Assembly: GCA_001803565.1 (NCBI GenBank)
Contig: MHDQ01000067.1
Span: forward strand, 1-13,098
DNA length: 13,098 nucleotides
Direction: 5' to 3'
Origin: Nitrospinae bacterium RIFCSPLOWO2_12_FULL_45_22
GTDB lineage: Bacteria; 2-12-FULL-45-22
Part shown: piece after piece, positions 721-10,574 of the stretch
Layout of the letters: every line of letters starts with the position of its first letter
Position numbering within the stretch: the stretch's first letter is position 1
Made by a program: the position numbers and the translations under genes
The notes under the pieces: model-generated
What the model saw: only the letters and a program-made list of their open reading frames with translations
Database searches by the model: none
What the model was told of the DNA's origin: nothing

Positions 721-1153
721 AAATGCAAAATTAGCAATTAGCATTGTAAAATCAATTCTTTCCCTTTGCGGTAAGAATACTTTTTGCAATGATAGCACAT
801 AATTCTTCGCACTCCTGAAGGAGTGGTTCAATACGCTTAGGTGCCACGATGCCGGTCCTGTGGATAACCCGTAGCCAATAACGTGATTCTTTAAGCTCTT
901 TTAGCACAATACTTAATTTGTGCGTAAAATCTGATCGGGATTCAGCCCCACAAGCTTCTTCGTAATTAGCTCCGGGAGACGTTCCAGACCGTATAAGTTG
1001 TCCCCCAATATGTTTGCTTATGCTTGTCTTTGGTAGAGTATTTACAAGTTTAATAATCCTAATCGCAAAATCAATCAAACGCTCAGTAAGATTATCCACT
1101 TTATTCTTAATAATTTTAGCTTCATTCATTGCTTATTGCTAATTTTGCAATTT
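721..1153. repeat. Inverted repeat flanking the four-helix-bundle gene
   Basis: A 15-bp exact inverted repeat (TGCAAAATTAGCAAT at 724-738; its complement at 1135-1149) brackets the small gene at 752-1129. The match extends imperfectly to about 721-742 and 1131-1153. The right arm starts two bases beyond the start codon and so contains the gene's translation-initiation region. The left arm lies 10 bases past the stop. Both arms contain a short internal duplication of the AGCAATTAGCA type. The arrangement suggests the gene and its arms form a unit that could be inserted or folded as a whole. Confidence 0.75.
752..1129 (-). CDS. Four-helix bundle protein (23S rRNA IVS / S23 family)
   Basis: The 125-residue product matches the pattern of the four-helix bundle family first described from ORFs in intervening sequences of 23S rRNA genes. 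It has an N-terminal helix with LTERLIDFAIRIIKLVNTLP, the central RSGTSPGANYEEA block around residues 47-58, then SDFTHKLSIVLKELKESRYWL, and a final helix rich in Leu, Glu and Cys. Length is normal for the family. Diversity-generating-retroelement Avd proteins share this fold, but no reverse transcriptase or variable repeat is visible here. It sits between carB and the SpoIIIAA-like gene, is not overlapped with either, and is bracketed by an inverted repeat, so it looks like an inserted unit. The start at 1129 has no clear Shine-Dalgarno site. The molecular function of free-standing members is not established; nucleic-acid binding is a family-level guess. Confidence 0.85.
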   Translation of the reverse strand: MNEAKIIKNKVDNLTERLIDFAIRIIKLVNTLPKTSISKHIGGQLIRSGTSPGANYEEACGAESRSDFTHKLSIVLKELKESRYWLRVIHRTGIVAPKRIEPLLQECEELCAIIAKSILTAKGKN

Positions 1154-1168
1154 GCGTTTTGACACTTT

Positions 1169-4100
1169 TTATTTTTCATTAGTGGTTAGGCTAGCCAGGT
1201 GGTATTCCTGGAGCGAGAGGACTTCGAGTTGTCCCTCGAGTATAGCCTTGATCCCTTGAGTGGCTGCCCAAGCCCCTGCTATCGTAGTGTAATAAGGCAG
1301 ATTATAAACCAGGGCATTACGGCGAATATAATAAGAGTCGTGCTGGGAGGCTTTCCCTTCGGGAGTATTAATAACCAGAGCTACTTCACCATTCTTTATA
1401 TGATCCACGATATGGGGCCGACCTTCTTTATATTTAAGCACGCTCTCTACGGCTAAACCAGCACCTCTTAAATACTCGCCCGTGCCGCGGGTAGCTAGCA
1501 ACTGAAAGCCCAATTGTACCAGTTCGCGGGCAATCTTTAGCACAGCCGGCTTGTCCTTATCCCTAACACTGATAAAGACCTTGCCCTTTCTGGGCAGTCC
1601 ACCATCGGTACTTAATTGAGACTTAGCAAAGGCCTTGCCAAAAGCGCTATCTATCCCCATGACTTCTCCGGTAGACTTCATTTCCGGCCCCAGGATACTA
1701 TCTACCCCAGGGAATTTGATAAAGGGGAACACTGCTTCTTTGACTGCCATATGCCTGACTATCCTTTCCTGCGTAAATCCTAACTCGCTTAAAGATTTAC
1801 CTACCATAACCTTAGTAGCTAGCTTAGCCAGGGGCACACCGATGGCCTTACTGACAAAAGGTATGGTACGAGAAGCCCGGGGGTTAACCTCGAGGATATA
1901 GATGCTATCCCCCTGGATAGCCAGTTGTATATTGATTAATCCTACTACCTGCAACTCTTTAGCCAACCGATAAGTATGTTCTTTGATGGTCTCGATCAGG
2001 GAAGGGGCAAGGGAATACGGGGGCAATGAACAAGAACTGTCCCCGGAATGGATACCAGCCTCTTCAATATGCTCCATTATCCCGCCAATGACTACGTCAT
2101 GACCATCAGCAATAGCATCAACATCAATCTCGATAGCGTCTTCCAGAAACTTATCTATCAGGACCGGGTGCTCAGGCGAGGCGGTCATGGCCTTAGTTAT
2201 ATATTCCTCCAGACTGGATTCATCATAGACCACCTCCATAGCCCTACCCCCCAGGACATAGGATGGCCTTACCAGTACCGGATAGCCGATCTGTTGGGTG
2301 ATCTTTTTAGCCTCTTGAAAAGATAACGCAGTGCCGCTTACTGGTTGTTGGAGTCCTAGTTTATTTAGTAGTTGCCTGAATCTCTCCCGGTCTTCTGCCC
2401 GGTCTATGCTATCCGGTGAGGTGCCTATGATCTTAACCCCAGCCTTTTCTAGTGGGACAGCCAGCTTTAGTGGTGTTTGGCCGCCAAACTGGACTATCAC
2501 CCCATCGGGCTCTTCTACCTCTACGATATTCAAGACATCTTCTAAGGTTAATGGCTCAAAATAGAGCCGGTCAGAGGTGTCATAATCCGTACTAACGGTC
2601 TCTGGGTTGCAGTTCACCATGATAGATTCATAGCCGATCTCTTTCAAGGCATAAGCAGCATGGACACAGCAATAATCAAACTCTATCCCCTGGCCGATGC
2701 GGTTAGGGCCACTACCTAAGATAACGATCTTTTTTTGCCTGGTGGGTTGGGCTTCACACTCCCGCTCATATGTAGAATAGAGGTATGGCGTATAAGCCTC
2801 AAACTCGGCCGCACAGGTATCAACCCGTTTGAAGGTAACCCTTATCCCGCCCTCTTTCCGCAATCTTCTTACCCTAGCTTCCGAAGTATTCCAGATTTGT
2901 GCTAGCCCGCGATCGGAAAAGCCATATTCTTTGGCCTTACGCAATAGTGGCCCGGAGCTGGCTCCGGCAGTCTTTAATTCTTCCTCCAGGGCTACTATCT
3001 CCTGTATATTAGACAAAAACCAGGGATCAATCCTGGTAAGTTCATAAATCTCTTCTACCGTCCAACCTAGCCGCAAGGCCTGAGCAATATCCCAGACCCT
3101 CTCCCAAGTAGGTAATTTCAACTTTTCCTGTATTATCTCTTCTATGTCATCCCGAGCCCTTCGGCCCTGAACAGGCCTCAGGGCAGGCTCCGCGAAGGGG
3201 AAGCGAGGAATCTTATCCTTTGCCTCTCTGTGAGACCTGTTCATTTCTTCCAACCCGTATCTATCAATCTCCAGTGAGCGGATGGCCTTTTGGAGGGCCT
3301 CCTTAAAAGTACGACCGATAGCCATCACCTCACCTACCGATTTCATTTGGGTAGTAAGGGTCTGGTCGGCCTGGGGGAATTTTTCAAAGGCAAAGCGGGG
3401 GAACTTCACTACACAATAGTCAATGGTAGGTTCGAAAGAAGCCGGGGTCTCACGGGTTATATCGTTAGGTATCTCATCCAGGGTATAGCCAACCGCTAAT
3501 TTAGCGGCAATCTTGGCAATAGGAAAGCCCGTGGCCTTGGAAGCCAGGGCCGAGCTGCGCGATACCCGGGGATTCATCTCTATTACTACCATCTGGCCAT
3601 TTTTGGGGTTGACCGCAAATTGTATATTGGAACCACCGGTCTCTACGCCAATTTCTCGGATAATGGCGATAGCAGCATCACGCATCAGTTGGTATTCTTT
3701 GTCGGTAAGGGTTTGCGCCGGCGCCACCGTGATGCTGTCACCCGTATGAATGCCCATAGGGTCAAAATTTTCTATGGAGCAGATAATGACCACATTATCT
3801 TTTAAATCCCGCATCACTTCCAGTTCATATTCCTTCCAGCCAATAACTGACTCTTCAATCAGTATCTGCCCAACCGGACTGGTATTCAAGCCCCATTCTA
3901 CATAGGCGCTAAATTCTTCTATGTTGTAAGCGATATTGCCGCCCGTACCGCCTAAGGTAAAGGAGGGCCGAATAATATTGGGAAAACCCACTTCTTCCAG
4001 GATTTGCCGGGCTTCTTTCTCTGAGCTGGCATAGCCGCTCTCAGGGATTTCCAGGTTAATGGCTTGCATGGCCTTTTTGAACAGGTTCCTATCCTCAGCC

Positions 4101-4474
4101 TTTTTTATCGCCTCAAGTTTTGCCCCTATCAGCTCTACACCATATTTGTCCAGGACACCGGTTTCCGCCAGGGTAACAGCAATGTTTAACCCCGTCTGGC
4201 CTCCCAGGGTAGGGAGTAGGGCCTCAGGGCGCTCCCGGGCAATGATCTTCTCGACTATCTCCGGAGTAATCGGCTCGATGTAAGTACGATCGGCCATCTC
4301 GGGATCAGTCATGATAGTAGCGGGATTGCTATTGATCAATACTACTTGATAACCCTCTTCTCTCAATGCCTTACAGGCCTGGGTGCCAGAATAGTCAAAT
4401 TCGCATGCCTGGCCAATGACAATGGGTCCAGAGCCTATTAGCAATATCTTCCTGATATCTTTTCGCTTAGGCAA
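1169..4474 (-). CDS. carB: Carbamoyl-phosphate synthase large subunit
   Basis: Makes carbamoyl phosphate from bicarbonate, ATP and ammonia supplied by the small subunit, for pyrimidine and arginine synthesis. The 1101 residues show both halves of the enzyme: an N-terminal dinucleotide-like lobe ([20 protein letters not shown] near 11-30), the first ATP-grasp with [16 protein letters not shown], an oligomerisation region, the second half beginning [19 protein letters not shown], the second ATP-grasp with [17 protein letters not shown], and a C-terminal MGS-like allosteric domain. The start is TTG at 4474, with AGGAG at 4481-4485 spaced by 6 nt. It overlaps the end of tsaC by 8 bp, so translation is probably coupled. 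The protein is about 30 residues longer than usual, because residues about 421-443, in the linker after the first ATP-grasp domain, are encoded by a palindromic repeat. No carA lies in the window. Confidence 0.97.
3146..3214. repeat. Palindromic repeat inserted in frame within carB
   Basis: On the carB coding strand this stretch encodes a segment with [18 protein letters not shown] that has no place in the usual CarB alignment. Its DNA contains nested inverted repeats: CCTTCG pairs with CGAAGG, and inside that CCCTGA pairs with TCAGGG. Local base composition is more GC-rich than the surrounding gene. The word order (GATTCCTCGC, then CCTTCGCGGAGCC, then GGGCTCGGGATGAC) resembles interspersed palindromic elements common in intergenic DNA of environmental bacteria. 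It adds 23 codons without breaking the frame, comparable in principle to Rickettsia palindromic elements. No second copy is visible in the window. Confidence 0.75.
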
Positions 4475-7839: not shown

Positions 7840-7857
7840 AATATTTTTGCAACCGTT

Positions 7858-7976
7858 CAGCCACCAGGGAACAAGCCGTGAAGCGCGAGGAGTGAGCAGT
7901 AAGGAGTTAACAACTCTCGGCTCACTCTTTACTCCTCACTGCTCACGGTTTAGGGGTCTTTGTGCCTTGGTGGCAG
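7858..7976. repeat. 119-bp imperfect palindromic element upstream of hisC
   Basis: Three nested inverted-repeat layers occur. The outer arms 7858-7872 and 7962-7976 match at 12 of 15 positions (CAGCCACCAGG against CTTGGTGGCAG). Middle arms lie at 7876-7893 and 7931-7948 (CCGTGA...AGGAGT against ACTCC...CACGG). An inner hairpin is GAGTT-AAC-AACTC. The right half shares CTCACTGCTCAC and GGTCTTTGTGCCT with a partial copy at 10277-10316. This is the clearest interspersed repeat family in the window, because two copies can be compared. Confidence 0.7.
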
Positions 7977-8057
7977 ATAAAGCTTACCTGGGTAAATGTT
8001 CATTTAATAATAACAGAAGTAGTAGAAAAAGCAAAAAAAAGGCAGGGAGAGGAATTA

Positions 8058-10270: not shown

Positions 10271-10316
10271 AGTGAGCTCACTGCTCACTCTTCACCGCTT
10301 ACTGGTCTTTGTGCCT
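10271..10316 (+). repeat. Partial copy of the 7858-7976 repeat family
   Basis: It begins with a perfect 12-bp palindrome AGTGAGCTCACT (10271-10282). It shares the exact words CTCACTGCTCAC (10277-10288) and GGTCTTTGTGCCT (10304-10316) with the right half of the larger palindrome at 7935-7967, in the same orientation but with different spacing. The 172-bp gap at 10163-10334 otherwise holds only the REP-like hairpin. Confidence 0.6.
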
Positions 10317-10334
10317 GGTTGAATGGTTATCCTT

Positions 10335-10574
10335 TTACTGTGGCAGTTCATCTGCAAAAACTGGTTTCTGCTCTTTAAGCGTGAACCGCTCTACAGCTTG
10401 AGAGAGAATCTGTTCGATAAGTTGCCTCTTCTTGGCTTCTGAAGATATAGTGACATTATCTATAACCTCTGAGGAATAATCCTCCTTCCTGGTAGGGTTA
10501 TTAGTCTTTTCCAGCTTCAGTTGCCTGTTATAGGTTTTGAGTACCGAATGGATCTGACTGAGCGAGATACTCAT
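10335..10574 (-). CDS. Small FlgM-like protein, possible anti-sigma-28 factor
   Basis: The 79-residue product begins SISLSQIHSVLKTYNRQLK. It has a central DNVTISSEAKKRQ segment that closely resembles the conserved D-x-(V/I)-x-IS-x-xAK motif of FlgM anti-sigma factors, followed by one amphipathic helix (IEQILSQAVERF). The longer C-terminal part of classical FlgM, which wraps sigma-28, is mostly missing. The protein is charged, has no membrane segment or signal peptide, and is probably largely disordered. The ATG at 10574 has a modest GGGG site 6 nt upstream. It sits in the flagellar operon between two response regulators, which supports a flagellar regulatory role. It may instead be an uncharacterised small flagellar protein that shares only this motif, so I give no symbol. 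Confidence 0.6.
   Translation of the reverse strand: MSISLSQIHSVLKTYNRQLKLEKTNNPTRKEDYSSEVIDNVTISSEAKKRQLIEQILSQAVERFTLKEQKPVFADELPQ

Follow-up and report, generated by a model that had tools for sequence, protein, structure and literature searches.

A dispersed REP-like palindrome read in frame within the carB gene of an uncultured Nitrospinae bacterium

The closest described relatives of the repeat considered here are the CGTC-tagged REPs, in which the tag is often TGTC, stems of 8–9 bp start with AT, loops span 4–5 nt and the 3-nt tail is mostly CCA; they form inverted dimers, occur in several phyla and have no dedicated transposase (PMC3733652). Both GTAG- and CGTC-tagged REPs have been found inside ORFs in O. 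terrae, Thauera, Xanthomonas, Thioalkalivibrio and others (PMC3733652), and the Rickettsia elements RPE-4 and RPE-6 were classed as CGTC REPs (Di Nocera, De Gregorio and Rocco, 2013, PMC3733652). The first RPE to be described measured 105–146 bp (PMC2229807). In-frame gene fusions are also documented for the ERIC and Correia/NEMIS MITEs (the latter in its 107-bp form; reviewed in PMC2229807 and PMC10969869), and the IS66 elements ISPpa5a and ISPpa7 make 8-bp duplications on insertion (PMC3281130).

The locus described here lies in a 13,098-nt stretch (positions 1 to 13,098 of contig MHDQ01000067.1, Nitrospinae bacterium RIFCSPLOWO2_12_FULL_45_22), referred to as the window. The gene carB, encoding the carbamoyl-phosphate synthase large chain, occupies 1172–4474 of its minus strand (ORF list; TTG start, stop codon at 1169–1171) and was the only full-length match when the host assembly, a draft of 3.67 Mb in 321 contigs that is 85% complete, was searched for it. 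Its product carries the usual CPSase set of Pfam domains (CPSase_L_D1, CPSase_L_D2, CPSase_L_D3 and MGS) and can be aligned with Escherichia coli CarB over residues 1–1093. A scan of genome contigs gave only CarB relatives of about 70% identity or less, from several phyla; the nearest relative compared, that of genome G001, shares 76–83% CarB identity. None of the 271 columns that are invariant in 44 other CarB sequences deviates in the window protein. The small chain gene carA (CPSase_sm_chain) was not found in the host draft (G000) and was found in all 14 control genomes, its sequence probably being missing from the draft. Next to carB, a 23S_rRNA_IVP family gene encoding a four-helix protein (752–1129, minus strand) is flanked by a 32-nt inverted repeat within 715–1158, the arms of which (715–746 and 1127–1158) are 84% complementary, so that the gene is bracketed as if it were a mobile cassette.

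CarB is 1101 amino acids long compared with 1073 in E. coli, and 23 of the 28 surplus residues are encoded by a REP-like unit of 69 nt at 3145–3213 (plus strand, TGTCATCCCGAGCCCTTCGGCCCTGAACAGGCCTCAGGGCAGGCTCCGCGAAGGGGAAGCGAGGAATCT). A first-pass annotation of the window had ascribed most of the excess length to such an insert, correctly, and had its size right, its coordinates (3146–3214) being one base off. On the minus strand the unit is translated as 23 codons, corresponding to about residues 421–444 of CarB with the flanking codons split, and CarB uses the sole stop-free frame of the unit's coding strand. On the plus strand it opens with the 5′ tag TGTC (3145–3148), which is common to other copies and is a described variant of the CGTC tag (PMC3733652). 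The outer stem pairs ATCCC (3149–3153) with GGAAT (3207–3211), with one C–A mismatch, and is followed by the tail CT (3212–3213), an ending shared by other copies. It encloses the nested inverted repeats that the annotation had also recognised, namely stem 1, with arms CCCTTCG (3157–3163) and CGAAGGG (3193–3199), and stem 2, with arms GCCCTGA (3164–3170) and TCAGGGC (3178–3184), the left arm of which is paired in the predicted fold. Folding energy was dropped as evidence for the unit (z = −0.84 over 81 nt); what sets the unit above chance is its repetition in the genome, the fold by itself not being exceptional. The junction sequence revealed no target-site duplication. The TA on either side of the unit was rejected as one, being too short and of a length that would put the codon count out of frame. 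Its precise junctions are deduced from the repeat ends, an unoccupied site in a closely related strain being unavailable and G001 the nearest genome for comparison.

The repeat is dispersed through the host genome, as established by pattern searches and by reading the stretches around the sites. Two long copies are both intergenic, one (C130:24173–24241) being 90% identical to the carB unit over all 69 nt (E 1e-20) and the other (C299:5574–5628) 91% identical over 55 nt (E 1e-15). The 13-nt end TGTCAYYCYGAGC, with one mismatch allowed, gave 123 matches in the genome against four for the reversed control; 106 of these sites were read, showing few inside ORFs and frequent inverted pairs. The majority are either hairpin units of 27–28 nt (TGTC-ATTCTGAGC-GAA-GCGAAGAAT-CT, dozens of copies) or longer forms of 52, 54, 58 and 69 nt with a second hairpin in place of the loop, the long kind to which the carB copy belongs. 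The core also includes GCGAAGC, a DNA mini-hairpin known for its unusual stability. Stem arms differ between copies and do so as matching pairs (ATTTC/GAAAT, ATTCC/GGAAT, ACCCT/AGGGT and ATTCT/AGAAT). Among 79 units picked only by their left end and TC(T) tail, the right arm was complementary at all five positions in 58, whereas 2000 permutations of the arms averaged 13.5 such units and never exceeded 26; the stem thus covaries strongly between copies. About 54 clusters were examined, with two convincing in-frame copies in genes, and among the long copies that of carB alone is genic, so few cases underlie any tendency of this family to invade genes.

A literature search with the literal repeat sequence found no paper, and the family was compared with described ones by its features. 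Like the CGTC REPs, it has an unpaired 4-nt tag (nearly always TGTC, but CGTC in some copies), it is multicopy, dispersed and mostly intergenic, with inverted dimers, some genic copies and a presence in several phyla, and no transposase gene is associated with it, whereas the GTAG REPs have their RAYTs. The first stem pair is A–T in nearly all copies and the second mostly T–A, or C–G in the ACCCT/AGGGT class. The stem spans nine positions (five strict pairs, two mismatches of G–A type, G–A and A–G, and two further pairs), that is, seven standard pairs, compared with the 8–9 bp of CGTC REPs. The loop, of 4–5 nt in CGTC REPs, typically measures 3 nt here, as GAA or a variant of it; it has 4 nt in units of 28 nt and more than 40 nt in the carB copy, where a nested GC-rich hairpin takes its place. 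The tail is CT followed by C or T, and not mostly CCA. The host repeat is therefore a close variant of the CGTC REPs, which we have placed in none of their four families because of the 3-nt loop, the CT tail and the two stem mismatches. With the RPEs it shares a palindrome translated in frame within a conserved housekeeping protein, here CarB, and apparently tolerated; it differs in lineage, in having far fewer intragenic copies in the host genome and, probably, in sequence. The first-pass annotation had looked to this locus for a coding palindrome outside Rickettsia. It is indeed an instance, although not a novel one in kind, because intragenic REPs in several lineages (PMC3733652) and ERIC and Correia fusions had already been published; what is new is the lineage, the target gene and the nested 69-nt form.

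The 23 residues are absent from all 73 aligned CarB homologues, 29 in one set of genomes and 44 in a set of named genomes, and the CarB of G001, the sole genome of the same order compared, is free of the insert. Of the two findings that the annotation had named as refuting its reading, the same residues in relatives and a genome free of further copies, neither was obtained. They lie, as the annotation had it, in frame between the ATP-binding domain (128–334) and the oligomerisation domain (450–528). The distance between the conserved residues E402 and P455 is 54 in the window protein and 24–40 in the others, and removal of the 23 residues would give 31, a normal linker length. An AlphaFold2 model built on the CarB alignment (mean pLDDT 86, pTM 0.89) has only one long stretch of pLDDT below 50, residues 412–439, just before a helix at 438–453; the insert there forms a loop of low confidence that adjoins the oligomerisation domain, in agreement with the flexible loop that had been anticipated. 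The low pLDDT is partly expected, as no aligned homologue covers these columns. The matching site in E. coli CarB, at about residues 409–425, lies where the oligomerisation domain starts. From the conservation and the model together, the encoded CarB would be active and would tolerate the insert.

These data bear on whether the residues might instead be a native, lineage-specific and functional extension of the linker, for instance an extra binding or regulatory loop, with the repeat derived from it or converged on it. Extensions are evidently tolerated here, as the 24–40 residues among homologues indicate, but the match to an intergenic copy at 90% over 69 nt (E 1e-20), the multicopy family with its covarying stems and the absence from G001 of the same order make this origin very improbable. 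The peptide itself also gives no sign of conservation or of selection, since six of the seven differences between the carB and C130 copies alter the encoded residue. A misjoin of a repeat copy into carB during assembly appears equally implausible: repeats often cause misjoins and the draft comprises 321 contigs, but a misjoin at a repeat normally fuses two different genes, and here carB sequence continues on each side of the repeat with frame and orientation unchanged and every invariant residue preserved.

Some REP units of the host genome are carried in larger elements. Seventeen of the 54 REP clusters lie between GTAACCGTTCA and TGAACGGTTAC ends within 320 bp, and elements with these ends, whether their interior is REP or other sequence, are frequently bordered by perfect 8-bp direct repeats (such as AAGAATTT, AAAAAATA, CTATTCAT, TAACCACT, TGAGGAGA and CTTTATCA). 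They make up a large MITE-like family of 110–240 bp (e.g. L180:1475–1586, L194:5556–5667, L184:1472–1606 and L202:1519–1641), the interiors of which are REP dimers in some members and CCACCAAGGCAC-type or unrelated sequence in others. An exact search for the end GTAACCGTTCAC gave 46 matches in the host genome and none for the control. One such end lies just upstream of an IS66-type transposase ORF (PF03050; L274:651–2469, C275:12150 onward), which starts 115 bp inside it and is interrupted by an assembly gap; this transposase is the likely autonomous partner of the GTAACCGTTCAC-ended MITEs. The composites thus resemble the IS66 family in their 8-bp duplications as well as in their ends, which points to IS66 as the carrier of some REP units in the host genome, a likeness from which the carB copy is excluded. 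In the window itself, a degenerate copy of the host genome's CCACCAAGG-type MITE occupies 7851–7996, and a similar fragment at 10280–10338 probably accounts for the window direct repeat D2.

A complete REP-carrying composite of this kind, 112 bp long and with the 8-bp duplication AAGAATTT, lies in frame in a 415-amino-acid ORF (L180:1127–2371, C302), upstream of a GvpL/GvpF domain in its C-terminal part. The frame of this ORF is kept because 112 + 8 nt make 120 nt, although the Gvp domain may begin at a later start codon. The two other GvpL/GvpF genes of the host genome are both without the MITE. Such an event in the same genome would fit a different history for carB, in which a larger IS66-type MITE, a composite of a GTAACCGTTCAC end, a long REP unit, a second REP unit and a GTGAACGGTTAC end, was inserted first and deletions then trimmed it to the left unit, in frame. 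The closest copy, at C130, sits within just such a 155-bp composite with GTAACCGTTCAC and GTGAACGGTTAC ends, and a GAGACC motif downstream of the carB unit resembles the start of the second unit. However, no GTAACCGTTCAC-like ends were found in the window, and both the terminal inverted repeat and the 8-bp duplication are absent around the carB unit, and the sequence on its left codes for native CarB residues that relatives conserve. Taking out the 23 residues by themselves already yields a typical linker, while also removing the ten residues up to GAGACC would shorten it to 21, below the homologue minimum of 24; such flanking ends are likewise absent from 37 of the 54 REP clusters in the host genome. 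Since the ends are missing from the carB copy, a remnant of this kind is a minority explanation, and an unlikely one. The same distinction applies to the bacterial MITEs that make fusions in frame, ERIC and Correia/NEMIS. The likeness to them lies in being short non-autonomous repeats whose open frames are joined to genes, and the host composites, unlike the carB copy, also show terminal inverted repeats with target duplications.

We consider it most probable (roughly 90%) that a dispersed REP-like palindrome was inserted in frame into an ancestral carB and was kept as roughly neutral DNA. A REP-like unit would have entered the gene in the orientation that presents the one fully open frame of its strand, and its 69 nt, or 23 codons, would have kept the carB frame. 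The site would be the variable linker that joins the first ATP-grasp half to the oligomerisation domain; there the 23 extra residues would form a disordered surface loop and the enzyme would keep working; we propose that the insertion was for this reason retained as roughly neutral DNA.

The core unit extends well beyond the host. Of 192 sampled genomes, 31 contain the 27-mer TGTCATTCTGAGCGAAGCGAAGAATCT with up to three mismatches, and the reversed control matched in none; the carriers belong to many families, their copy numbers reach 92, and some unrelated families share exact matches. G001 has 18 core units. A RAYT/Y1 transposase was rejected as the mover, since Y1_Tnp is present in 23 of the 31 repeat-bearing genomes and in 95 of the 161 others, an association that is not significant over the 192 genomes (Fisher p 0.16), and is absent from G138, G014 and G033, which have 60, 33 and 29 copies respectively. 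IS66 was rejected as a general mover of the core unit as well (3 of 31 vs 18 of 161 genomes, p 1.0). No GTAACCGTTCAC ends were found in G001 despite its 18 units, and IS66 is therefore at most a carrier, and in the host genome only. A broader reading, which we offer tentatively, is that a near-identical 27-nt core common to distant lineages spreads with no transposase of its own and has two routes into genes in the host genome. Those routes, put forward with the same reserve, might be solo units with a length that is a multiple of a codon, as in carB, and units travelling as cargo of IS66-type MITEs in which length plus 8-bp duplication is a multiple of three, as in the gvp ORF.

The carB insertion is a clean case of a repeat turned into part of a protein, here a central enzyme, and comes from an uncultured lineage that branches deeply; it also links the Rickettsia-style coding palindromes to a repeat family of many bacterial families. 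The parts of greatest value are the widespread core (31 of 192 genomes) and the IS66 carrier. An IS66 transposase acting as carrier of some units bears on the spread of CGTC-like REPs and, if true, the carrier route would explain how some of them move.
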